Source: Oscillospiraceae bacterium
GTDB lineage: Bacteria > Bacillota > Clostridia > Oscillospirales > Oscillospiraceae
Direction of reading: 5' to 3'
DNA length: 64,000 nt
Assembly (NCBI GenBank): GCA_910575265.1
Contig: CAJTEA010000005.1
Coordinates: forward strand, 1-64,000
Numbering within the stretch: position 1 is the stretch's first letter; every line of letters begins with the position of its first letter. Under the pieces are notes generated by a model that worked only from the letters and a program-made list of their open reading frames with translations, had not been told where the DNA came from and made no database searches. A program made the position numbers and the translations under genes. Shown here piece by piece: positions 11,560-35,837 of this stretch.

Positions 11560-13620
11560 TTACGTTTCCAAATAACGGATGACAACGTCATCCCGAGCCT
11601 TCAGCTCCTGCATAAAGGAACAGTTGCTCCCGTTGACCTGCAGCTCGACGCCGCGGTCCAGATTATCAAAATCAATGCCGGAGTGTTCCAGCAGGTCCAT
11701 TACGTAGTAAGGTGCGCCCTCCTCCTTGGCGGGCAGGACCAGCGACTGCCCATTGAGCACCACCTGAATCGGTTTTCCCATAACAGGCTGAGGGGCGGCG
11801 GGCGAAGTTGGGGGGACCACTACCTCTTCTGACTTCGGGGCGGAAGAAACGGGCCTTTGCTCCTTTTGTTCAGGGCGCTTGGGGCGCTCCGCCGCCCTTG
11901 CCGGCTCCGTCCGGGGCGCTTCCGCGCGCGGGGTGGGTTCCGCCATCTTGGGCGCCTCCACCCGCTGGGGCATCCGCGCCTCCGCCGCCTCCGCTTTCCG
12001 CGGTTCTGGGGCGGAAGGGGTGGACGGTGAACGGCGAACCGGCTGGTCAGAGGTGCTGATCTGGTCGCCAGTGTTCAGCGGCGTATCCAGATCAGCCCAC
12101 CGTCCATTGACGGTAACACCCCGGGCAAAATCCGCCCCCAGCAGGTCCTTTAAGGTCCGTTGAGCCGGTATGCCGGGCACCGCCGGCGTAAACTGAATGC
12201 TGTCCCCGGCATAAACCAGAGTGGAGGGGGCCGTCTCCTGCCCATTCAGCAGCAGCGAACAGGGTGCGGCGGGCTGACCCCGGAAGGTCATCCTCTGCCC
12301 ATCCACCGTTACGCTCAGGTTTTTCCCCGTTCGGCCCACCAGGTCGGCGGAGGTATAGCCGTTCATCATCAGCAGCTCCAGCACGGTCAGCGAACCGCTT
12401 CGGAAGAGCTTGGCGGGCTGGCCGTTGAGCATGATTCGGTAGCTGTCGCTGATCAGCCCCAGACCGGCTGACACCGCAATCCCCAGAGGGGTGGCCAGCT
12501 CCGGGTCGTTCAGGTCATACTCCTCCGAGAAGGCGGTAATATCATAGTTGCTACCCGCCAGCGCCACCCGGTTGTCATCCATATCCAGCGCCTCGGCCAC
12601 CAGCTCCCGGAGACCGTCCAGCTTGCTGCCGCCTCCGGCCAGGAACAGGGCGGAGGGCGATCCGCCGTTGAGAGCGGTCACCCGCTGGGCGATCTCCTGG
12701 GCCAGAATCCGGGCGGGCTTCTGTACCGCCTGACGGATCTCGGATCCGGAGACCGCCTGCTCCAGGCCCAGCACATCCCGGTAGGAGACGGAGGGCTCGT
12801 TCATCTGGGTTTTCATCCGCTCCGCTGTGGCGAAGGGGATCAGATACAGGCGCATCAGCTCCTCGGTGATCTCGTCCCCAGCGATGGTAGCCATGGTATA
12901 GCCCACCACGGTGCCGTCCCGGCAGACCGCAATATCCGAGGTGCCCGCCCCAATATCGGCCAGCACTAAATTGAGCAGGCGCAAATCCGCGGGGATGGCC
13001 GCGTTGAGGGCGGCGATGGGCTCCAGGGTCAGGCTGGCGACCTCCAATCCAGAGGACTCCACCACAGCGTAGAGGCTCTCCACCACCTCGCCGGGGAGAA
13101 AGGTCGCCACCACGTCGGCCTCCAGCAGCTGTCCATTGTGGCCGCGCAGGGTGGTCATGGGGTAATGGTCCAGCCGGTAGCCTGAAACAGTGTAGCCCAC
13201 CAGATAGAACCTGCGTTGCTCATCGGGGCTCTGCCCAATCTGGGCTTCCGCGTCAGAGACGGCGCCGCTCTCCAGACGGCTGATCGCGTCGTCGGTCACC
13301 CGGGTCACCTCGGGGTACTCCATGGAGTAGCTGCCCTGCTCGGTGCGCAGGGCGCGGCCGGCGGCCGCCACGCAAACCCGCTCCAGGGTACAGTCCAGCC
13401 GCTCCTCCAGCCGGTCGGTCACCCGGCGGGCTATTTTGGCCACCTGGGCAATATCCTCAATCTGGCCGTCCAGCATGGCCCGCTTCCCGTGCTCCTCCTT
13501 CTCAATGGCCAGCACCTGAAAGCGCTCGTCCACCACCTGACCCACAACGCCAATAATGCTCCGGGTCCCGATGTCCAGCGCGAACACCATCTCACTGCTC
13601 TGGGGTTTTCTTTTTGCCAT
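11560..13620 (-). CDS. FtsA-like actin-fold ATPase with long C-terminal extension
   Basis: A 686-residue protein. The first 390 residues or so follow the FtsA/PilM actin-like fold: phosphate-1 motif FALDIGTRSIIGVVG, phosphate-2 LADIGAGTSDIAV and adenosine motif FLAGGGSKLDGL. FtsA is normally about 420 residues. Here a C-terminal region of about 290 residues adds beta-rich segments (two with a VxLNGQ pattern, possibly repeated modules) separated by a Pro/Ala/Glu linker. No ftsZ is adjacent. It sits between a chemoreceptor and a membrane protein, so it may anchor a membrane assembly other than the division ring. Confidence 0.7.
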   Translation of the reverse strand: MAKRKPQSSEMVFALDIGTRSIIGVVGQVVDERFQVLAIEKEEHGKRAMLDGQIEDIAQVAKIARRVTDRLEERLDCTLERVCVAAAGRALRTEQGSYSMEYPEVTRVTDDAISRLESGAVSDAEAQIGQSPDEQRRFYLVGYTVSGYRLDHYPMTTLRGHNGQLLEADVVATFLPGEVVESLYAVVESSGLEVASLTLEPIAALNAAIPADLRLLNLVLADIGAGTSDIAVCRDGTVVGYTMATIAGDEITEELMRLYLIPFATAERMKTQMNEPSVSYRDVLGLEQAVSGSEIRQAVQKPARILAQEIAQRVTALNGGSPSALFLAGGGSKLDGLRELVAEALDMDDNRVALAGSNYDITAFSEEYDLNDPELATPLGIAVSAGLGLISDSYRIMLNGQPAKLFRSGSLTVLELLMMNGYTSADLVGRTGKNLSVTVDGQRMTFRGQPAAPCSLLLNGQETAPSTLVYAGDSIQFTPAVPGIPAQRTLKDLLGADFARGVTVNGRWADLDTPLNTGDQISTSDQPVRRSPSTPSAPEPRKAEAAEARMPQRVEAPKMAEPTPRAEAPRTEPARAAERPKRPEQKEQRPVSSAPKSEEVVVPPTSPAAPQPVMGKPIQVVLNGQSLVLPAKEEGAPYYVMDLLEHSGIDFDNLDRGVELQVNGSNCSFMQELKARDDVVIRYLET

Positions 13621-18352: not shown

Positions 18353-21238
18353 TCAGCCGCCCATCATGCCCGCCAGGGTAGCGCTCTGGGAATTCATCTG
18401 CTGAATCAGCAGCTCCAGGCGGCTGAACTGGCTGGTATAGCGCTCCACCTGGCTGGTCAGCTTATCCTGCCACTTCTCAATCTGGGTGTTGTAATTGTCA
18501 ATCTCCGTCTGCCACTGGTTGTTCATCAGAGACAGAGAGCTCAAGGGGCTGCCGGCCTGCTGAATGAGGATGCCCTTGGGCTCGCCAGTGGTCTTGGCGT
18601 AGGCGTCCAGCTGGGTCTTCATCCGGTCCATAATCCCGTCGGTCTTGGTAAACAGGTCGGCCACCCGGTCCGGGTCGCTGTCCAGCATGGCGCGCAGCTT
18701 ATCCTCATCAATCGTAATCGCCTGCTCGCCGCCGCTGATGTTGTAGCCGATTGAAATACCCATATCCTTCAAGGCGTTTATATCGTTCTGGCTGGCGAAG
18801 GAAAAGGCCTGGGTCATCTTGGTATACAGATTGGACAGGTTCCGGTCGCCGAAGAGGATGCCCTGCTTGGCCTTCTCCTCATAGCGCTCGATGGCGCTTT
18901 CAGACATACCCTCCCGTTCCTCATCGGTAAGGGGCTCATAGCCGGCGAAGGAACCATCGGACTTCTGATAGGGCATCGTGCTGTAGGCTGACTTGATCTC
19001 GTTCATCATGGCGTTGTAGTCGTCCACCATGCTCTTGATGGCGTCGATGATCTTGTCAGAATCCGTTTGGTTCTCAAAGGTGACCGACCGTGCCTTTATC
19101 TCAGCCGCGGAGAGCGAATTACCGTCCTCATCCACTGTGGCGTCGAAGGTGTTCTTCATGGTAATGCTCAGGCCGTCAATATCCACGGTGTTGCTGCCGC
19201 GGGTCATGTTGATGGTCTCGCCGTTGACGGTGATGGTAAACTTGGCGTCCTGCCCCGCGGTATAGTCAATATTCGGCGCTTTGGAGCTGTCAAATTCAAC
19301 CTCGCTGCCCCACTCGTTCTCGATCTTGAACTCAACCGACGCGCCATTCTTATCCTTGGCTTCGATCTGGCCCGTATACTTGTTATAGCTGAAGGTATGG
19401 TCACTGCCTATGGGAGAACTGTTCAGCTTGTCAACGACATCGCTGATGGAGTCATCCTTTGTCATAGCGCACGTATACTCGCTGTCTCCGGGTATTGTAA
19501 AGGTCAGCTTGTCGCCATCCCGCAGCCAGTCGCAGCCGTAGGCCTCGGCAAAGCTGCTGCCGCTCTTGTCCTCAGGCTCGGTCGGGCCAAAAATCATTTC
19601 CGCCATTCCGCCGCTGATCTTAATCTCACTGTCCGAGCCAGTTTCCGTGGCGGTAAAGGTAAAGCTCTGGGTGGTCTGGGAGTAGGACACCTTCACTCCG
19701 GCCTCTTTATTGGAATTGATGTCGGACAAAATGTCAGACAGCTTGGCGTCCTCAGTGTAGGTACCGATGACCACATCATTCAGCTTAAACTCATACTTCT
19801 GCTTACCCGTCTTTTCATCAACATCCAAAACCTCAACGCCGAACTCATCCTCCTTCTTCGCGGGAGACAAGGTGCCCAGCTGGTCTCCCAGCAGCTCCTT
19901 CAAGGTCTTGCTGGTGTTCAGATAGGAGGTAGCGGTCTTGCCAATGCCCAAGGCCTCGCCCGCGCCGCTGTTGATAACCAGGCTGGAACCTTCATCCGTT
20001 GCCTTGAATTCCAGCTTTAGTTCCCCGTTTTCTCCTTTGTTCTCCACTGTAACCTTGTTCTTAAATTCCTTCTTTAACGATTCCTGGAGCGCCTCAGTGT
20101 ACTTGTTGGCCAAATCCTCCTTGGTGGTCGCTTCGCCGTTGACATAGTAGGTTTCGTTTCCATCCTCATCTTTCTCGTATCCGAGTCTGGGCATCTTAAT
20201 CTGCTTGGTCGTGCCATCCAGCGCCACGTTCATGGTCAGGCCTGTGGAGCCAGACTCCGAGGACTTCTCCACCAGATACTCGAAGGAGTTCAGCTTGCGG
20301 GTCAAACCGGTAGTTCCGTTCGAGCCGGTTATATTGCTTGTGTCGAGGGTGGTAAGTTTGCTCTCCGACGCGTTTTTCAGCGCGTCGGTGTCTATGCCAA
20401 GCTGTTCGGCAATGTTTCCGCTGGTCTTGGAAATATAAACACCGTTGTGTCCGTTTCCAATCTCGCTGAACCGAATACTGCCGCCATAGGCCGTGGCCTG
20501 AATACGCTGGTTCGCGCTCTCAGAGTTGCCGTTGGTAAAAGCGATGTTCTGATCCGCCAGCTTCTGGTTAATCAGCTCCGCCAAAACCTCGCTGTCACTC
20601 ACGCTCTCCTCGGAAATCCCCTGCTCGCTGGACAGTCTGGCGCGGATGTCCTTCATCGTGTCCACATCAGTGCTCTCGTTAAAGCTGATGCTGACGTTCT
20701 TGGTGCCATAGGTCAGGGTCAGGCTGCCCTGGAGGTTGGACAGCTCAATGTCTCTCTCCGCGTCGACGGACAGGTCAACCCCATCCGAGGCCGCAATGAC
20801 GCCCGCCTCGGTCGTCGGCAGGTTGCTTTTGGTGCGGTACTGCGCGGAGGCGGCCAGCTGGCGCACCGCGTTGAGCTGAACATCGCTTCCGGTCTTGCCG
20901 CTGGCGTTCACGCTGTCGGCGAACGCCCCCTTGGCCAGCACCTTGATGGCGCTGCTGAAAAAACTGGAGGACATCAGGTTGGTGCTGGAGGTATAGGAGG
21001 TATATTTATTGGAGAACCCCACCATTTTGCTGATAATGCTCCGGTACGCGTCCTGTTTCCATTCAACCTTGGTGACCTTCTGGTTCAGCTGATTGATTTT
21101 TGTGGAATAGCTCTGGACCAGGCTTTCTATCATGCTTTCCGTGTCCAGGCCGCTGGCCAGACCGCTGATCATGTTCGCGCTGTTCATGAGACTGCTTACG
21201 GTGTTGCTGCCGCTGCTCACGCTGCTGAGAGACGCCAT
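18353..21238 (-). CDS. fliD: Flagellar filament cap protein FliD (enlarged)
   Basis: It forms the cap at the filament tip and helps flagellin fold there. The conserved N-terminus (ISGLASGLDTESMIESLVQSY, about residues 28-48) and C-terminus (helical, LERLIQQMN-type) are present. At 961 residues it is about twice the common size (about 450-700), because the central surface domain is expanded. The ATG follows AAAGGAG. It starts the operon with fliS and the fliT-like gene behind a sigma-28 promoter (21319-21345). Confidence 0.93.
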   Translation of the reverse strand: MASLSSVSSGSNTVSSLMNSANMISGLASGLDTESMIESLVQSYSTKINQLNQKVTKVEWKQDAYRSIISKMVGFSNKYTSYTSSTNLMSSSFFSSAIKVLAKGAFADSVNASGKTGSDVQLNAVRQLAASAQYRTKSNLPTTEAGVIAASDGVDLSVDAERDIELSNLQGSLTLTYGTKNVSISFNESTDVDTMKDIRARLSSEQGISEESVSDSEVLAELINQKLADQNIAFTNGNSESANQRIQATAYGGSIRFSEIGNGHNGVYISKTSGNIAEQLGIDTDALKNASESKLTTLDTSNITGSNGTTGLTRKLNSFEYLVEKSSESGSTGLTMNVALDGTTKQIKMPRLGYEKDEDGNETYYVNGEATTKEDLANKYTEALQESLKKEFKNKVTVENKGENGELKLEFKATDEGSSLVINSGAGEALGIGKTATSYLNTSKTLKELLGDQLGTLSPAKKEDEFGVEVLDVDEKTGKQKYEFKLNDVVIGTYTEDAKLSDILSDINSNKEAGVKVSYSQTTQSFTFTATETGSDSEIKISGGMAEMIFGPTEPEDKSGSSFAEAYGCDWLRDGDKLTFTIPGDSEYTCAMTKDDSISDVVDKLNSSPIGSDHTFSYNKYTGQIEAKDKNGASVEFKIENEWGSEVEFDSSKAPNIDYTAGQDAKFTITVNGETINMTRGSNTVDIDGLSITMKNTFDATVDEDGNSLSAAEIKARSVTFENQTDSDKIIDAIKSMVDDYNAMMNEIKSAYSTMPYQKSDGSFAGYEPLTDEEREGMSESAIERYEEKAKQGILFGDRNLSNLYTKMTQAFSFASQNDINALKDMGISIGYNISGGEQAITIDEDKLRAMLDSDPDRVADLFTKTDGIMDRMKTQLDAYAKTTGEPKGILIQQAGSPLSSLSLMNNQWQTEIDNYNTQIEKWQDKLTSQVERYTSQFSRLELLIQQMNSQSATLAGMMGG

Positions 21239-21383: not shown

Positions 21384-22163
21384 TTGTCCGCTATCATTAC
21401 CATTACCAATCAAAAGGGCGGCGTGGGCAAGACCACCACGTCCAGCGCCCTGATGGATGGCCTGCACAGCCGGGGGGCGCGGGTGCTTGGCGTTGACCTG
21501 GACCCACAGGGCAGCCTGGGCTTCTGTCTGGGCCTGGATATTGAAAACTGCGCCACCATCCACGATGTGCTCAAGGGCACGAAAAATATTAAGGATGTGA
21601 TTGTGGGATCCGATTGCGGGGATATCCTGCCCTCCAACATCCTGCTGTCCGCCGCCGAGCTGGAGTTCAACCGCCCCGGCCGGGAATTCCTGCTGCGCAA
21701 CTGCCTGTCAGAGGTGGAGGACGACTATGATTACATCATCATCGACACTCCGCCCGCCCTTAATGTGCTGACGGTGAACGCCTATGTGGCCGCCGACGGC
21801 CTGGTCATTCCCATGGCCCCTGAGATTCTCAGTCTGCTGGGGGTGTCCCAGATCCGGGAGACCATCGACACCGTTCGCCGGTGCTACAACTCCCGCCTGC
21901 GGGTGCTGGGCATCGTCCTGAACAAATACAACCAGCGCTTCACCCTCAACCGGGAGGTGCTGGATATGGCCGAGCAGATCGCCCAGCAGCTGGACACCAC
22001 GGTGTTCCAGTCCCGCATCCGGTCCGGTGTGGCGGTGGCGGAGGCCCCCGCCCATGGGGAGAGCGTACTGTCCTACGCCCCGGAGTCCAAGGTCGCCCGT
22101 GACTTTCGTCTGCTCATCAATGAGATCATAAAGTTTTACAACCCCGTTTTCCTTAATTCCTGA
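21384..22163 (+). CDS. ParA/Soj-family ATPase
   Basis: A 259-residue deviant-Walker ATPase: NQKGGVGKTT (residues 9-18, with the signature Lys) and DTPPALNVL (Walker B region). Such proteins position DNA, chemoreceptor arrays or other cargo by ATP-driven dimerisation on the nucleoid. No parB or parS-like site is next to it; instead a ComFB-domain protein follows 23 nt later. It is divergent from fliD. The TTG start at 21384 follows GGGGGAG. It could be an orphan positioning ATPase for motility or chemotaxis cargo; chromosome segregation is the alternative. Confidence 0.85.
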   Translation: MSAIITITNQKGGVGKTTTSSALMDGLHSRGARVLGVDLDPQGSLGFCLGLDIENCATIHDVLKGTKNIKDVIVGSDCGDILPSNILLSAAELEFNRPGREFLLRNCLSEVEDDYDYIIIDTPPALNVLTVNAYVAADGLVIPMAPEILSLLGVSQIRETIDTVRRCYNSRLRVLGIVLNKYNQRFTLNREVLDMAEQIAQQLDTTVFQSRIRSGVAVAEAPAHGESVLSYAPESKVARDFRLLINEIIKFYNPVFLNS

Positions 22164-22186: not shown

Positions 22187-23143
22187 ATGTCTACCGCTAA
22201 GAAAAACGCCAAGGGCAATAAAACCGCCCATGTATTAAATCTTCTCACCGCCCCCGGGGCCGCGAAAGAAACCGCGGCCCCCTCCGGCGAGGAGACGGCC
22301 GCGGAGGGCGCTGTTCCCGAAGCCTCCGCGCCCTCCCGTCCGCTCCTTCCCCCTATTCTGGAAGTGGCCCAGGCCAACGACGACAACCTGGCCCAGCAGA
22401 TCCAGCAGGCTCTGGAGGAGGAGCTCGTACCCGACACGCCCGCCGCCCCGGAACCCAGCATTCCGCCTGCCGGGAAAGAATCAAAAACTGAGGAGGTATC
22501 CCCCCCCATGGCAACTCAGCCCGCATCCTCTGGCAAGATGAGCCAAGACGAAATTGAGAAGCTCCTCGCCGCCGCCAACGCCCCCGCCGAGCCGGCCGCT
22601 CCCGAACCGGAACCCGCGCCCGCGCCCCCTCCGTCCTCCGGCGGCAAGATGAGCCAGGACGAAATCGAGAAGCTCCTCGCCGCCGCCAACGCCCCCGCCG
22701 AGCCGGCCGCTCCCGAACCGGAGCCCGCACCCGCGCCCCCTCCGTCCTCCGGCGGCAAGATGAGCCAGGACGAAATCGAGAAGCTCCTCGCCGCCGCCAA
22801 CGCCCCCGAGGAGAAAGCCGCGCCCGCGCCGGAACCCCCCAAGCCCGCCCCTGTGCTGGAAGAGGAGGATGTCTCCTATATCAACATCATGCAGGCTCTT
22901 GTGGATGAAAAGGCCCCTTCATACATCAAGAAATTTGGTCTGTGTACCTGCAAGCACTGCGAAGCGGACGTAAAGGCGCTCACTTTAACCAACCTTGTGC
23001 CCAAGTATGTGGTGCTGTCCAAACTGGACCGCATCCCAATGCTCACAGTCTATGAGGGGCGGTATAACTCCACCATTTTTGCCCAGCTTACCCGCGCCTG
23101 CAAAACGGTAATGGATCACCCCCATCACAACCGCGAGGCATGA
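22187..23143 (+). CDS. ComFB-domain protein with three CheY-docking-like repeats
   Basis: A 318-residue protein. Residues 1-110 are low-complexity with one short helix (about 68-81). Three copies of the motif MSQDEIEKLL (118-127, 155-164, 192-201) are set in Pro/Ala/Glu linkers of 37-residue period. The C-terminus (about 231-313) is a ComFB domain with Cys253-x-Cys255-x-x-Cys258 and DVKALTLTNLVPKYV. The repeated motif resembles the CheY-P-docking peptide of FliM and FliY (LSQSQIDALL and MSQEEIERLM in this window). ComFB proteins have been reported as cyclic-dinucleotide receptors. I infer a signal-controlled CheY binder; this is untested. It is in an operon with the ParA gene. Confidence 0.75.
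   Translation: MSTAKKNAKGNKTAHVLNLLTAPGAAKETAAPSGEETAAEGAVPEASAPSRPLLPPILEVAQANDDNLAQQIQQALEEELVPDTPAAPEPSIPPAGKESKTEEVSPPMATQPASSGKMSQDEIEKLLAAANAPAEPAAPEPEPAPAPPPSSGGKMSQDEIEKLLAAANAPAEPAAPEPEPAPAPPPSSGGKMSQDEIEKLLAAANAPEEKAAPAPEPPKPAPVLEEEDVSYINIMQALVDEKAPSYIKKFGLCTCKHCEADVKALTLTNLVPKYVVLSKLDRIPMLTVYEGRYNSTIFAQLTRACKTVMDHPHHNREA
22532..22807 (+). repeat. Tandem 111-bp coding repeat (2.5 copies)
   Basis: Units 22532-22642 and 22643-22753 are nearly identical, and a third partial unit (22754-22807) covers the motif GKMSQDEIEKLLAAANAP. The few differences are synonymous, which suggests recent duplication. The unit encodes one docking-like motif plus its linker. Confidence 0.9.
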
Positions 23144-26912: not shown

Positions 26913-27731
26913 TCACTTGCCGCCGGTCATATACTGGTTCATATACAGCTTCAGCTTCTGGATGGCCCGGGAGTGGAGCTGGGAGATGCGGGGCTCACTG
27001 ACCTCCATCACCTGGGCGATCTCCTTCATGCTGAGATTTTTGTGGTAGTAGAGAGAAATGACCGTCTGCTCATTCTCCCGCAGAGAACCGATCGCTTTCG
27101 TCAAAGTATCCAGCATCTCCTGACGGAGCATGGAATCCTCCGGCCGGCTGTCGAAGGATCCGTCGGGCAGCTCCGCTCCGCCGTTCTGCTCCCGGTCCTC
27201 AAAGAGGGCGTCCAGAGAGAGGACGTTGCACATGGAGGAATTTGCCAGATCCTCCTGATACTGGTCCTGAGACAGGCCCAGGCGCCGCGCCATCTCCTCA
27301 TCCGTGGGATAACGCCCCAGTTCGGCAAACAGCTCGGCGCTGGCCTGGTCAATATCCCGGGCCTTGCGCCGCACGCTGCGGGGTACCCAGTCCTGCCGCC
27401 GGGCCAGATCAATCACCGCCCCCCGGATGCGCTTGGACACATAGGTCTCAAATTTGATCCCTTTGTTAGGGTCAAACTTATCCACCGCTCCGGCAAGGGT
27501 AATCAGCCCCTCGTTGACGATATCGTCCACCTGAGCGAAACTGCTGTACACCCCCCGCACCTGAAGCGCGATAGTCTTGACCAGCCCGATATACCGCATC
27601 ACCAGCGGCCACTTCAGATCCTGGTCGCCCGTCTCCTTATAGGTCTGAAACAGCTCCTCGGGGGACATGGCATCCAGTTCCTCCCGGGTCCAGCCCTGTC
27701 CCGCCTGACTGCTGGCCGCCGCGCCGCTCAT
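26913..27731 (-). CDS. fliA: RNA polymerase sigma-28 factor FliA (SigD)
   Basis: It directs RNA polymerase to late flagellar and chemotaxis promoters. The 272-residue protein has region 2 (DDIVNEGLITLAGAVDKFDPNKGIKFETYVSKRIRGAVID), region 3 and a region 4 helix-turn-helix (SMKEIAQVMEVSEPRISQLHSRA). It overlaps flhA by four bases (ATGA). Its targets in the window are the sigma-28-type promoters before fliD (21319-21345) and the yjfB-like gene (10596-10622). Its antagonist FlgM is at 55490-55792. Confidence 0.95.
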   Translation of the reverse strand: MSGAAASSQAGQGWTREELDAMSPEELFQTYKETGDQDLKWPLVMRYIGLVKTIALQVRGVYSSFAQVDDIVNEGLITLAGAVDKFDPNKGIKFETYVSKRIRGAVIDLARRQDWVPRSVRRKARDIDQASAELFAELGRYPTDEEMARRLGLSQDQYQEDLANSSMCNVLSLDALFEDREQNGGAELPDGSFDSRPEDSMLRQEMLDTLTKAIGSLRENEQTVISLYYHKNLSMKEIAQVMEVSEPRISQLHSRAIQKLKLYMNQYMTGGK

Positions 27732-29848
27732 ACCGCGGCCGCCTTTCGCTCAGGCCGGGCCCGGGCCGTATCCAGAGTGATATTGCCCAGGGACTGAATC
27801 TGTACGTCGCTGGTGATCTCATTGAAGGATAGCACATAGACGCCGGGGTAGAACTGAGACAGCATCCGGCTCAAATAGACGCGGATGACCTGACTGGTGA
27901 GGATAATGGGAGTCTGGGACAGGTCGTTGAACTTTTTCAGGTACTCGCCCAGCTGATTGACGATATTCTGCATCAGGTCGGGACCCATGGCCAGGTAAAT
28001 GCCCTGCTCGTTCTTGGTGAGGGAGCTGATTACCCGCTTCTCCACCTCGGCGTCCAGCGTGACCACCCGAAGCTGTCCGTGCTCGCAGAAGCGGCGGGTA
28101 ATGGTGCGGCTGAGGGCTACGCGGATGTTCTCGCACACCATATCCAGGTCCTTGGTGGTCATCAAGGAGTCCACCGCGGTCTCCAAAATGGTGGCCAGAT
28201 CCCGAATGGGGACGCCCTCCTTCAGGAGATTGCGCAGAACGCGCTCCAGATTGGCGTAGGACAGTACACCGGGAATGGCCTCAGACACCAGCTCAGGGGC
28301 GCTGTTTTTCAGGTTCTCCACCAGCTGGATGACCTCCGCCCGGCCCAGCAGCTCGTAGGCGTGGCGGCGGACCACCTCGCTCATGTGGGTCTGCATGACG
28401 GACAGGGGGTCAATGACGGTGTAGCCGTAAATTTCCGCCATCTCCTTGTTTTCCGGCAGAATCCACCGGGAGGGGATGCCGTAAGCGGGCTCGATGGTCT
28501 CGATGCCGTCGATCTGGCCGCCGGGATTGGTGGGCTCCAGCGCCAGGTAGTAATCCACCAGAATCTCGCCCCGGGCCACCTCCTCCCCCTTGATCTTCAC
28601 CACATACTGGTTGGTACCCAGCGCGGAGGAGTCGTGGAGGCGGATGGAGGGGATCACAAAACCCATGTCCTGGGCGTACTGGCGGCGGAAAATTACGATC
28701 CGGCTGATGAGCTTGCCGCCGCTGCTCTCATCTACCAGGGGAATCAGGCTGTAGCCGAACTCCATCTCAATGGGGTCCACGGTGAGCAGCCCATATACAT
28801 TATTGATGTCCTTATAATAGTCTGTCTCACTGGGCACAGCCGACATATCCGTCGCTGCTGGCTCCTCCGCCTGAACCATCTCGGCTGCTTTCTCCCGGTC
28901 CAGCCGGCTTATCATGAGATACCCGAATACAGACAGGGCTACGCCTACGATGAGCAGCGGAATGGTGGGAGTGCCCGGAATCAGGCCCATCAGCACAAGA
29001 ACAACGCCGGCCGTGAGGATTGCCCGGGGCTGCTTGGCGAACTGGCCGATAATATCCGCGTTCAGGCTTCCCTCCGACACCGAGCGGGTGACGATCATGC
29101 CGGTGGCGGTGGAGATCATCAGCGAAGGCAACTGAGAGACCAGGCCATCGCCGATGGTGGCGATGGAATAGGTCTGAGCCACCGTTCCCAGGTCGCCCAC
29201 GCCGTTGATGGAACCGATAATAATGCCGCCAATCAGGTTGATAGCCGTAATAATCAGCGACATAGTGGCGTCGCCCTTGACGATCTTGGTGGCGCCGTCC
29301 ATAGCACCGTAGAAGTCGGCCTCACGCTGAATCTTTTCCCGGCGCTGGCGGGCCTGCTGCTCATTGATCAAGCCGGAGGAGAGGTCGGCGTCAATAGCCA
29401 TCTGCTTGCCGGGCATGGCGTCCAGGGTAAAGCGGGCGGCAACCTCGGCCACGCGCTCCGCGCCCTTGGTAATGACGATAAACTGCATCAACACAATAAT
29501 ACAGAAGATAATGATACCCAGCACGATGTTGCCCTGAGTGATCAGATTGCCGAAGGTCTGGATCACCGCCGTGCCAGGCGCGCCAGTATTACCCTCAAAC
29601 CTCAGGATGGCCCGGGTGGTGGACACGTTAAGGCCCAGGCGGAACAGGGTAGTAATCAGCAGCAGCGAGGGAAAGATGGAGAATTCCAGCGCGTCTGAAA
29701 TGGTCATGGTGACCATCAGAATTACGATGGACAGCGAGATGTTGGTAATAATCAGAATGTCCAGGATTGCTTCCGGCAGAGGGATGACCAGGAACAGAAC
29801 GATGACCACTACCATAAGCGCTATGCTGTTTTGAAAAATACGCCGCAT
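27728..29848 (-). CDS. flhA: Flagellar export gate protein FlhA
   Basis: A 706-residue core component of the flagellar type III export gate, using proton motive force and docking substrate-chaperone complexes. It has about eight N-terminal transmembrane helices (about residues 1-330), the conserved FHIPEP-type loop region and a cytoplasmic domain (about 350-690). ATG after AAGGG. fliA follows directly; flhF and flhG, which lie here in many Gram-positive operons, are absent. Confidence 0.97.
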   Translation of the reverse strand: MRRIFQNSIALMVVVIVLFLVIPLPEAILDILIITNISLSIVILMVTMTISDALEFSIFPSLLLITTLFRLGLNVSTTRAILRFEGNTGAPGTAVIQTFGNLITQGNIVLGIIIFCIIVLMQFIVITKGAERVAEVAARFTLDAMPGKQMAIDADLSSGLINEQQARQRREKIQREADFYGAMDGATKIVKGDATMSLIITAINLIGGIIIGSINGVGDLGTVAQTYSIATIGDGLVSQLPSLMISTATGMIVTRSVSEGSLNADIIGQFAKQPRAILTAGVVLVLMGLIPGTPTIPLLIVGVALSVFGYLMISRLDREKAAEMVQAEEPAATDMSAVPSETDYYKDINNVYGLLTVDPIEMEFGYSLIPLVDESSGGKLISRIVIFRRQYAQDMGFVIPSIRLHDSSALGTNQYVVKIKGEEVARGEILVDYYLALEPTNPGGQIDGIETIEPAYGIPSRWILPENKEMAEIYGYTVIDPLSVMQTHMSEVVRRHAYELLGRAEVIQLVENLKNSAPELVSEAIPGVLSYANLERVLRNLLKEGVPIRDLATILETAVDSLMTTKDLDMVCENIRVALSRTITRRFCEHGQLRVVTLDAEVEKRVISSLTKNEQGIYLAMGPDLMQNIVNQLGEYLKKFNDLSQTPIILTSQVIRVYLSRMLSQFYPGVYVLSFNEITSDVQIQSLGNITLDTARARPERKAAAV

Positions 29849-33148: not shown

Positions 33149-33514
33149 TCAGGGTTCGCCGATGATGGAGGTGACTGTCTTCAGCACACGCTCAGGCTTA
33201 AAGGGCTTGACAATGAAGTCCTTGGCGCCGGAACGGATCGCGTCGATGACCATGGTCTCCTGACCCATGGCGGAGCACATGACCACATTGGCGTTGGCGT
33301 CAGTGGCGCGGATGGCCTTCAGGGCCTCCAGGCCGTCCATGTTGGGCATGGTGATATCCATCAGCACCAGGTCGGGCTTCAACTCATTGTACTTCTCCAC
33401 AGCCATAGCGCCGTCCTCGGCCTCATAGATCTCGGCGTAACCAGCCTTGCTCAGGGTGTCCTTAATGACCTTGCGCATAAAAGCAGCGTCGTCAACTGTC
33501 AGAATCTTAGCCAT
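33149..33514 (-). CDS. cheY: Chemotaxis response regulator CheY
   Basis: A 121-residue single receiver domain. The acidic pair Asp8-Asp9, phospho-acceptor Asp53 (in LMDITMPNMDG), Ser in VVMCSAMGQ and Lys in IVKPF are all present. Phosphorylated by CheA, it binds the docking motifs of FliM and FliY at the motor. AAAGGATG precedes the ATG. Three further docking-like motifs occur in the ComFB-domain protein at 22.2-23.1 kb. Confidence 0.95.
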   Translation of the reverse strand: MAKILTVDDAAFMRKVIKDTLSKAGYAEIYEAEDGAMAVEKYNELKPDLVLMDITMPNMDGLEALKAIRATDANANVVMCSAMGQETMVIDAIRSGAKDFIVKPFKPERVLKTVTSIIGEP

Positions 33515-33574: not shown

Positions 33575-34828
33575 TCAGCCCTGAGTAAGCACGTTGATGT
33601 CAGGCTTTTGCAGAATCTCGGTAATGCGGATGCCGAAATTGTCATCAATCACCACTACGTCGCCCTTGGCCACGCACTGGCCGTTGACCAGCAGATCCAC
33701 CTGGTCGCCAGCCAACTTGTCAAGAACCACCAGCGAGCCCTTGGAGAAGGACAGAATATCCTGAATCTTTCTCCGCGTCCGACCGATTTCCACCGCTACT
33801 TCCAGAGAGACGGAGAGAATCAGGTCCAAGTTCTCCTGCTGCTCCTGACTGAGCTGGCTCTCCGCGCTCAACTCCCGCATCTTGGGCTGCTGAGCGTTGA
33901 TTACCTTGGGCTCAGGTGGCGCGGGCGGCTGCTGGGGCGGATAGGGATAGGGCGGATAGGGGTAAGGATACTGCCCATAGGGAGGATAGCCGGGATAAGC
34001 GGGGGCCTCTCCCATTGGGGGCATTCCAGGAGGCGGAGCCATGGTCGCCGCGGGCGCGGCGGCAGGAGCCGCGGGGGGCGCGGCGGCTACGGGCGCGCCG
34101 GGAGTCGGAGCGGGGGCGGAAGCCGCTCCGCCCGCCATCAGCCGCTCGATCTCCTCCTGGCTCATGGTGGCGCCTCCGCCGGCGGGAGCGGGGGCGGGGG
34201 CGGGGGCCGGTTCCGGCTCAGAGGTCTCCACAGTATCCAGTCCGAACCCGGCAATCAGCTCCTTGGCCAGTTCCACCGACATGACGTTCATGAACTCGCT
34301 GTCCAGCACGTCGTCAATGGTCAGGTTAAAGCGGACCACCACCACAGGGCCATGGGTAACGGGGAAATGCTCCTCCTTCACCTGGTCCAGGTCGCGCAGC
34401 TCAAAGGACTCAGGGGTGGAAATGTTTACCATTCGCCCCAGCAGATCGGACAGCGCCGTGGAGGACGAGCCCATCATCTGGTTCATCAGCTCACACACCG
34501 CGCTGATAGACAGATCGTTCAGCTCAAACTCCTCGTCCGGGGTCTCGGTACCCAGAAGGATATCCACAATCGCTTTTACGTCGCTGCGTTTGAGCAGCAT
34601 AATGTTGCTGCCCTCCAGACCGCAGACGTATTTGATTTCTACGCCAACCGCCGGCTCGATCCTGCCCAGCGAAAAGTCCTCCGCGTTGACAACATTTACT
34701 CTGGGCGTGGTAATATCCACTCGGTGGTCCAGCATATTGGAAGCCGCGGTGGCGGAGGAACCCAAGCTGATATTCATGATCTCCCCGATAGCGTCTATCT
34801 CTATCGGGCTAAAAATATTCTCTTCCAT
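33575..34828 (-). CDS. fliY: Flagellar switch phosphatase FliY
   Basis: A 417-residue switch component that dephosphorylates CheY-P at the motor. Residues 1-200 are a CheC-like domain with two intact sites (Asp12, Glu16, Asn19; Ser109, Glu113, Asn116). A long Pro/Ala/Gly/Tyr linker (about 203-320) follows, then a FliN-type C-terminal domain (about 330-417). The CheY-docking motif, at the extreme N-terminus in Bacillus and Thermotoga FliY, is here inside the linker as MSQEEIERLM (222-231). Confidence 0.95.
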   Translation of the reverse strand: MEENIFSPIEIDAIGEIMNISLGSSATAASNMLDHRVDITTPRVNVVNAEDFSLGRIEPAVGVEIKYVCGLEGSNIMLLKRSDVKAIVDILLGTETPDEEFELNDLSISAVCELMNQMMGSSSTALSDLLGRMVNISTPESFELRDLDQVKEEHFPVTHGPVVVVRFNLTIDDVLDSEFMNVMSVELAKELIAGFGLDTVETSEPEPAPAPAPAPAGGGATMSQEEIERLMAGGAASAPAPTPGAPVAAAPPAAPAAAPAATMAPPPGMPPMGEAPAYPGYPPYGQYPYPYPPYPYPPQQPPAPPEPKVINAQQPKMRELSAESQLSQEQQENLDLILSVSLEVAVEIGRTRRKIQDILSFSKGSLVVLDKLAGDQVDLLVNGQCVAKGDVVVIDDNFGIRITEILQKPDINVLTQG

Positions 34829-34847: not shown

Positions 34848-35837
34848 CTACATTTTTATGTAGGTCTCTCCGATTTTCACGGCCACCTGCTTGTTGCTGG
34901 TGCCCATATGCCCGTCGAACCACCTTCGTCCGCCGATATTCAGGAATACCGGGGAGTCCTTGGAGCGTTTGATATCCACCACATCACCCACGTTCAGATG
35001 ATACAGGTCGCTGAGCAGTATCCGGGTTCGGGCCAGCTCGGCCACAATTTCCAGCTCGGATTCCCGCAGGGTATCGAAGATCTCCTCGGACTTGTCCTCG
35101 CCGGTGGTGCGGCGGCTGTTGTTCTTGCTGATCTCCGTAAAGATATTGGTCAGCATTTCCCCGGGCAGGCACAGGCTCATACGGCCCGTGCAGTTGGGAA
35201 ACTTGATATTCAAACCTACAATGACCACCGTCTCGTCATAGCCAATGAGCTGAACCAGGGTGGGGTTGACCTCGGTGCGGATGTAGGAGAACTGAATGGT
35301 AATATAGTTCTCCCAGCTGCCGCCCAGAATGGGGACAAAGTCGCTTACCAGGTCCTCATACATATTCAGCTCCAGGTCGGTAAGGTTATACTCGCTGGAG
35401 ATAGTCGGATCCGGGTCGCCCTCGCCGCCCATGAGCCGGTCCAGCATGGACAGGACCACCGGAGTATCCAGATGGACCAGAATGGGGTCGTCTCCTTTCA
35501 GGTGCTCCAGGTCGATCTCGGCCAGGGATACTACATCGCTCTCGTTCAGGCCGTTGGCAAACTCATAGTAACGCTGCTCCTCCACGCTGTCAACCTCTAT
35601 TTCACAGGTAGCGTGAAGAAGGGCGTTGATCCTGGAGTTGATGACCCGGGCGTAGCCCTCAAAAATGCTGTTGAGCATTTTCAGGCGGTCCTTGGTGAAC
35701 TTCCGGGGACTGTAGAAGTCGTACTTTCGGTACTTCTGCTCCTGCTTCTTCTCCGTCGGCGCGTCCAAGTCCATCTCGCCGCTTCTGGCCGCGTTCAACA
35801 GGGCGTCTATCTGACTTTGTGATAAGACTTCAGCCAT
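34848..35837 (-). CDS. fliM: Flagellar motor switch protein FliM
   Basis: A 329-residue C-ring protein that changes rotation direction on binding CheY-P. The N-terminal docking motif is LSQSQIDALL (residues 5-14). A CheC-like middle domain and a C-terminal FliN-like domain (about 255-329) follow. It is 19 bp upstream of fliY. GGGGGATTC-type site before the ATG. Confidence 0.96.
   Translation of the reverse strand: MAEVLSQSQIDALLNAARSGEMDLDAPTEKKQEQKYRKYDFYSPRKFTKDRLKMLNSIFEGYARVINSRINALLHATCEIEVDSVEEQRYYEFANGLNESDVVSLAEIDLEHLKGDDPILVHLDTPVVLSMLDRLMGGEGDPDPTISSEYNLTDLELNMYEDLVSDFVPILGGSWENYITIQFSYIRTEVNPTLVQLIGYDETVVIVGLNIKFPNCTGRMSLCLPGEMLTNIFTEISKNNSRRTTGEDKSEEIFDTLRESELEIVAELARTRILLSDLYHLNVGDVVDIKRSKDSPVFLNIGGRRWFDGHMGTSNKQVAVKIGETYIKM

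Follow-up and report, generated by a model that had tools for sequence, protein, structure and literature searches.

A ComFB protein with a tandem array of FliM/FliY-type docking motifs beside a ParA-type ATPase: a proposed CheY-P docking scaffold in a flagellar locus

Within the 64,000-nucleotide stretch of Oscillospiraceae DNA analysed here (the window), a flagellar locus encodes a long ComFB protein with three tandem copies of the motif type found in FliM and FliY, and its gene stands next to one for a ParA-type ATPase (Table 1). Judging from their sequences, relatives appear to have such repeats on one of two proteins, ComFB or FliY. The explanation that we prefer, and whose chances we put at about even, is that a ParA-partnered ComFB dimer acts as a CheY-P docking scaffold that took over its sites from FliY.

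Table 1. Features of the window that bear on the long ComFB protein and its putative ligand
Feature	Position	Strand	Basis or remark
ParA-type ATPase (KGGVGKT)	21384..22163	+	Pfam AAA_31, 171.8 bits
Long ComFB gene, 318 aa	22187..23143	+	ORF and translation; Pfam ComFB, 40.3 bits
Conserved basic N-terminal peptide, MSTAKKNAKGNKTAHVLNLL	22187..22246	+	Putative ParA-binding peptide
Second conserved helix, residues 56-80	22352..22426	+	AlphaFold2
Docking motif 1, MSQDEIEKLL	22538..22567	+	Residue 118; predicted helix 120-130
Docking motif 2, MSQDEIEKLL	22649..22678	+	Residue 155; predicted helix 157-167
Docking motif 3, MSQDEIEKLL	22760..22789	+	Residue 192; predicted helix 194-204
ComFB domain, residues 233-312, with CTCKHC	22883..23122	+	Pfam
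CheY-type single receiver domain, putative ligand	33149..33514	-	Pfam Response_reg, 110 bits; directly 3' of FliY
FliY, two CheC-type sites and FliN domain	33575..34828	-	Pfam, motif scan
Single FliY docking motif, MSQEEIERLM, in linker, residue 222	34136..34165	-	
FliM, N-terminal LSQSQIDALL at 35796-35825	34848..35837	-	Pfam, motif scan

The long ComFB protein and its motif array

The long ComFB open reading frame starts with ATG and occupies exactly the interval given in Table 1, with GGAAAGGA adjoining it on its 5' side. From the N-terminus, the protein consists of a short peptide, a conserved helix, the three docking motifs and the ComFB domain. The core K[TS][ASD][HR][VI][LM] of the N-terminal peptide, a pattern drawn up after the sequences had been inspected, is present in all 76 long ComFB proteins whose N-terminus is complete, and the net charge of the peptide ranges from 1 to 5 with a mean of about +3 (75 measured). 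AlphaFold2 predicts, with low confidence, a helix at residues 13-20, and pLDDT over residues 1-50 is 46-58 by block, in keeping with a disordered peptide. The second helix is predicted with a pLDDT of 83 (block 61-70) and 89 (block 71-80), and its QIxxALE-type pattern was found in 67 of the 76 long ComFB proteins.

As the initial annotation had it, a ComFB domain with a CxCxxC cluster lies C-terminal to the repeats; its match to Pfam PF10719 exceeds the curated cut-off of 25 bits, while the score against the NCBIfam ComFB equivalog NF052654 is 27.4 bits, below the cut-off of 120. The predicted fold of the domain matches both the Bacillus subtilis ComFB structure (4wai) and the c-di-GMP-bound structure of CdgR (8hja). 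The zinc ligands of ComFB are given as C25, C27, C30 and C88 or a His (PMC4381287). The three Cys align in the window protein and are invariant across 41 alignment rows, and the fourth ligand is, from the alignment, probably a His near residue 314. Of the residues described at the dimer interface (N4, E7, D33, N40 and Y46; PMC4381287), the N, D and Y are retained, while E7 is replaced by Q and N40 by T. B. subtilis ComFB is described as an obligate dimer (PMC4381287), so that, if the analogy is valid here, each dimer would present six docking sites.

MSQDEIEKLL occurs three times with the 37-residue spacing first noted. The array is encoded on a 111-nt tandem DNA repeat (2.8 copies, 93% matches), in which copies 1 and 2 are 96% identical and copy 3 is 75% identical across the full unit. 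AlphaFold2 places one helix in each repeat, and no others, between residues 118 and 228. Where three motifs are observed, shuffles of the 130-residue linker region (composition, n = 200,000) averaged 0 strict and 0.00002 loose ones per shuffle. A chance or artefactual origin of the array is ruled out by these shuffles, by the DNA repeat and by the presence of the same type of array in other assemblies.

The core SQxxI[DE]x[LM]L, present in three copies in the window protein, was found in 73 copies over 25 genomes, with linkers of 19 to 32 residues between copies. In these 73 copies, I6, E7 and L10 are invariant and position 9 is L or M, but the search pattern was composed after the sequences had been seen, with Q3 fixed, positions 6, 9 and 10 restricted and E7 free, and conservation at positions 3, 6, 9 and 10 is therefore partly by construction. 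The codons vary: the isoleucine is ATT in 32 copies, ATC in 39 and ATA in two, E7 is GAG in 31 and GAA in 42, and L10 is CTC in 27, CTG in 45 and TTA in one. As motif copies are nearly identical inside one genome, repeated duplication is indicated. Long ComFB proteins of the genus carry 0 to 6 copies, numbers that are lower bounds where contigs break inside repeats and that assemblies may have reduced by collapsing repeats.

Loss of the EI-x-x-LL core from homologues that keep the linker had been named at the outset as evidence against the docking reading, and this check does not refute it. Of 67 anchors of GGK type in the long ComFB ORFs that were examined, 66 lead into an intact core; the exception is an N-terminal NGKG outside any linker. 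The GK anchor is absent from two of the 73 motif copies. A linker that persists after losing its core is thus ruled out within the genus, while outside it one of the five units of genome G048 lacks the core. Another type of repeat, LPEGVLGWDENGQPI, is also found in the ComFB arms of three relatives (L071 in G027, L120 in G008 and L113 in G013), two of which, G027 and G008, have a long EP run ahead of the motif array.

The ParA-type neighbour and the flagellar locus

The ParA-type gene, which the initial annotation had missed, ends 23 bases 5' of the long ComFB gene and is probably its operon partner. Relatives were collected by a domain-alignment scan of genome contigs, in which 283 matched and the best 80 were retained. 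Among these best 80 of 283, a ParA gene lies directly upstream on the same strand at 64 of 64 loci whose upstream sequence exceeds 400 bases, FliD is divergent beyond ParA at 59 of 59 loci with at least 1.5 kb upstream, and CheV, with CheD and CheC, is convergent at 59 of 72 loci with at least 3.5 kb downstream. The names attached to the relatives include Lawsonibacter, Flintibacter muris, Pseudoflavonifractor, Colidextribacter, Oscillibacter, Butyricicoccus, [Clostridium] viride and Pygmaiobacter, together with many uncultured Oscillospiraceae or Firmicutes bins; Flintibacter muris DSM 110149 (L160) has five repeats.

In the window itself the long ComFB gene is located between fliD, which is divergent, and cheV-cheD-cheC, which converge on it with flgEFG-type genes. 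A flagellar cluster fills much of the window and includes FliS, FliD, a FliA-type sigma factor, FlhA, FlhB, FliR, MotA and MotB, with further matches to FliK, a FliI-type ATPase, FliJ, FliG, FliF and FlgK. The FliA-type sigma factor gene directly follows flhA (26913-29848, minus strand). FliD is long (961 aa; 18353-21238, minus strand), with its FliD_N and FliD_C matches at opposite ends, and a gene for an FtsA/PilM-like ATPase of 686 aa (11560-13620, minus strand) lies near an MCP gene and the flagellar cluster.

Within the genus, a ComFB match is present in 35 of 64 genomes and a FliM-family match in 35 of 64 (34 above the cut-off), and the two lists, compared by eye, name the same 35 genomes. 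The FliM match below the cut-off belongs to G068 (79% complete), where only a CheC-like gene was seen. Of the 35 genomes of the genus that carry ComFB, 26 (by a count made by eye) also have a second, short ComFB without the arm (for example L002, G000:C47:8532-8807), and no short ComFB was found in those genomes of the genus that lack flagellar genes. At locus L070 (3727-4929, in G016), a short ComFB directly follows the long one, giving tandem ComFB genes behind ParA.

The ParA pairing is also retained where ComFB carries no motif. Outside the class, three genomes of a single family in the same phylum (G727, G841 and G702; loci L286-L288) pair ParA with a long ComFB that has no array. Because the pair persists in loci and taxa without the array, ParA-ComFB is the constant system and the array an addition to it. 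Partners of ParA are described as working through a charged N-terminal stretch (PMC10241942), and by analogy the basic N-terminal peptide of long ComFB fits such ParA-partner peptides.

The constancy of this neighbour raises the main alternative, namely that the array binds a ParA/MinD-type ATPase (the adjacent ParA, or an FlhG encoded elsewhere) rather than CheY, and serves to count or place flagella. FlhG uses the EIDALL motif itself. It is a MinD-type ATPase reported to bind FliM via the N-terminus and, in B. subtilis, FliY (PMC12826062). Searches of the 187-kb contig by phmmer or pattern found neither a second ParA/MinD-type ORF nor an FlhF-like GTPase, which is in line with this reading; flhF and flhG were not seen there by the scans made, and no ORF on the contig carries DQAxxLR. 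We nevertheless consider this reading unlikely for three reasons. First, ParA also adjoins motif-free ComFB, so binding of ParA cannot require the array. Second, the N-terminal peptide, with its core in every complete N-terminus, is better suited to ParA binding than the array. Third, the window ParA has only about 10 residues ahead of KGGVGKT and lacks the N-terminal enhancer helix with DQAxxLR that is described for FlhG (PMC12826062).

Docking motifs on FliY and on ComFB

The proposal that the array docks CheY-P draws on FliM and FliY. CheY-P is reported to bind a conserved EIDALL motif of both proteins, the FliM peptide occupying the groove between alpha4 and alpha5 of CheY, and the FliM N-terminus is described as a high-affinity site that raises CheY-P numbers for a second site (PMC9126983). 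The window FliM begins MAEVLSQSQIDALL, and LSQxxIDxLL stands at the FliM N-terminus in 81 of 81 complete starts. On the minus strand, FliM is followed by FliY and then by the CheY-type gene. The initial annotation had assigned the ComFB repeats to the CheY docking motif of FliM and FliY, and the motif type agrees; the FliY copy, however, sits in a linker and not at the N-terminus. This linker lies between the CheC-like and FliN domains, both in the window and in relatives (L203-L264), and none of the 86 genomes has a motif within residues 1-60 of the FliY ORF. The two CheC-type sites of FliY are kept in 85 of 86 genomes, including 25 of 25 with a ComFB array. With these sites and the FliM motif conserved to this extent, the CheY-P pathway looks intact. 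As a docking proxy, the FliY stop was read through (code 4) into the in-frame cheY and the single chain was folded with relatives; the motif had a pLDDT of 48-57 by block and the FliN part was below 50, and at these values the model of FliY, linker and CheY gives no sign of docking and argues neither for it nor against it.

Of 91 genomes entered, 86 were scored for motifs on both proteins, five (G068, G069, G112, G125 and G135) being dropped for want of a scored long ComFB or FliY ORF. The FliY linker holds two to four tandem motifs in 53 of the 86, and in all 53 ComFB has none; 25 have one or more motifs on ComFB and at most one on FliY; and no genome has two or more on FliY together with any on ComFB. 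The remaining eight have at most one motif on FliY and none on ComFB: the genes are cut or split in G013, G070 and G122, which were also omitted from the tree labels, FliY has one motif in G094, G096, G134 and G137, and G129 has none in either protein. As four genomes manage with a single FliY motif and none on ComFB, and G129 with no motif at all, the array is not essential. Twelve FliY ORFs stop at a contig end before 330 aa, and without them the four classes (both, FliY tandem, ComFB array, neither) become 0, 47, 20 and 7.

A Fisher value of 4.5e-15 for this exclusion disregards relatedness and is not a usable probability. On a FliM + FliY tree, the ComFB array shows about four state changes and the FliY tandem eight. 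Independent pairs never changed in the same direction, but the median p of the sign test was 0.25, and the exclusion is not significant after tree correction. The changes in the array fall in the window's clade, in G030 with G074, in G048 and in G012, the last of which lies inside the window's clade and has no motif on ComFB and two on FliY.

In G048, from another family, ParA is present, ComFB carries five MSDDAI units and FliY is free of motifs. The ComFB units read MSDDAIAELL, MSDDAIAALF (three times) and MSDDAISTSF, the last being the one without the core, and have neither the Q nor the E of the window motif; in our judgement they are the same kind of peptide, and the count of five was set by hand, four units matching the loose pattern. 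In a third family, G232, which was found later and stands outside both exclusion counts, ParA is accompanied by an ORF with the long-ComFB N-terminal peptide and six motifs. This ORF, cut off by the contig end ahead of any ComFB domain, resembles the first part of a long ComFB. The FliY contig of G232 breaks nine residues past the first motif, and the exclusion would fail in this genome if the truncated FliY proves to be tandem. We therefore regard the exclusion between FliY and ComFB as a lead, not as proof.

Proposed role and relation to known systems

We propose that long ComFB is the partner of the flagellar-locus ParA-type ATPase and would form a dimer in which a long, flexible arm precedes each ComFB domain. 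The basic N-terminal peptide would bind ParA, which would position ComFB, and the three FliM/FliY-type peptides, six per dimer, would dock CheY-P. Docking could enrich CheY-P locally, at the motor switch and the FliY phosphatase or in their vicinity, which is the same job that the two to four tandem FliY-linker peptides may perform in many relatives, and docking sites would have moved between FliY and ComFB. Because the array trades places with tandem FliY sites, it is most simply explained as a scaffold on which CheY-P docks to serve either the switch or the FliY phosphatase.

The ComFB domain may also bind c-di-GMP or c-di-AMP and thereby alter the placement or availability of the array. The initial description of ComFB proteins as cyclic-dinucleotide receptors is borne out by published work on cyanobacteria, where ComFB is reported to bind both c-di-AMP and c-di-GMP (PMC12313861), and by the match of the predicted fold to CdgR, a c-di-GMP receptor (PDB 8hja; PMC13075795). 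GGDEF (four matches) and DAC (one match) domains are encoded in the bacterium's own genome. By analogy with these receptors, cyclic-dinucleotide gating of long ComFB is possible.

The initial annotation had envisaged a signal-controlled CheY sink, in which ComFB would withhold CheY-P from the motor and free it when a cyclic dinucleotide binds or leaves. Such a sink would suit a separate protein with several sites per chain and the nucleotide binding published for cyanobacterial ComFB. The trade-off with FliY tandems, however, suggests a role shared with switch-borne sites and not competition with them, and because array and FliY tandem are mutually exclusive in the genomes scored, a shared job at the motor switch fits better; the sink is not favoured, and we think it quite improbable. 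The repeats could instead serve assembly of the switch, mimicking FliM/FliY peptides so as to bring in or retain a chaperone or C-ring component, with no part for CheY. The genes do stand among structural flagellar genes, but the parts of the literature examined name only CheY and FlhG as partners of the peptide (PMC9126983, PMC12826062), and a role in assembly seems very unlikely. Least credible is neutral growth of a functionless repeat after the linker captured a FliY-like peptide that expands by slippage, which would suit the fast turnover implied by near-identical copies within a gene and copy numbers of 1 to 6, the other repeats and EP run in the G027 arm and the core lost in G048, but which sits poorly with a core kept across species despite synonymous codon change, with the intact anchors and with separate occurrences in other families (G048, G232).

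Returning to the CheY-P docking scaffold, a bolder version of it is tentative and, in our estimate, has the chances against it: a ParA-placed, cyclic-dinucleotide-sensing ComFB dimer would act as a mobile, multivalent CheY-P antenna, docking peptides would shuttle between FliY and ComFB in evolution, and the number of CheY-P sites per switch would be set by two alternative carriers, one of them controlled by position and by a second messenger. Should the array prove to bind CheY-P, docking sites of the switch would reside on a separate protein, possibly controlled by a second messenger. In Firmicutes, c-di-GMP or c-di-AMP would then have a direct path to motor bias, the ComFB proteins, a family still little understood, would gain a function in motility, and the ParA-ComFB pair, constant in the flagellar loci examined, would be explained. 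The FliY/ComFB trade-off would then amount to a natural experiment on what a switch gains from several CheY-P sites.

ComFB, docking peptides and ParA partners are each of a known kind. What is new is the ParA-ComFB-FliD-CheV gene order, the common basic peptide and the pattern of FliY tandem versus ComFB array. Among the titles and abstract openings surveyed, which took in few subscription papers, we found neither the union of ComFB, docking peptides and ParA partner in one protein nor tandem FliY sites or the FliY/ComFB trade-off.

The array resembles the FliM N-terminus and the FliY motif in its SQxxI[DE]x[LM]L core and predicted helix, and differs in being tandem, in lying off the N-terminus and in its carrier, which is no known switch component. 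ComFB of B. subtilis (PF10719, PDB 4wai) is described as a small protein of the comF operon (PMC4381287), whereas the window ComFB, encoded in a flagellar locus next to ParA, bears its docking repeats on an arm of about 230 residues. CdgR (8hja) lacks the cysteines in the aligned part. ParA/MinD systems and their partners (ParC, PpfA, McdA, FlhG) are likewise described as pairing the ATPase with a neighbouring protein whose N-terminus is short and basic (PMC10241942), but here the neighbour is a ComFB with docking repeats, a pairing not found in the literature surveyed. Finally, the initial annotation did not know a direct link between cyclic dinucleotides and chemotaxis to be described. This holds for the ComFB form, which the literature surveyed did not yield, and not for the link as such, which the Cle proteins of Caulobacter are reported to make in another form by connecting c-di-GMP to CheY-like motor control (PMC5677366). 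Cle and the proposed role of the window ComFB have in common that c-di-GMP is tied to control of the motor and chemotaxis; the Cle proteins, however, are CheY-like and bind c-di-GMP themselves (PMC5677366), whereas the window ComFB carries CheY-type ligands.
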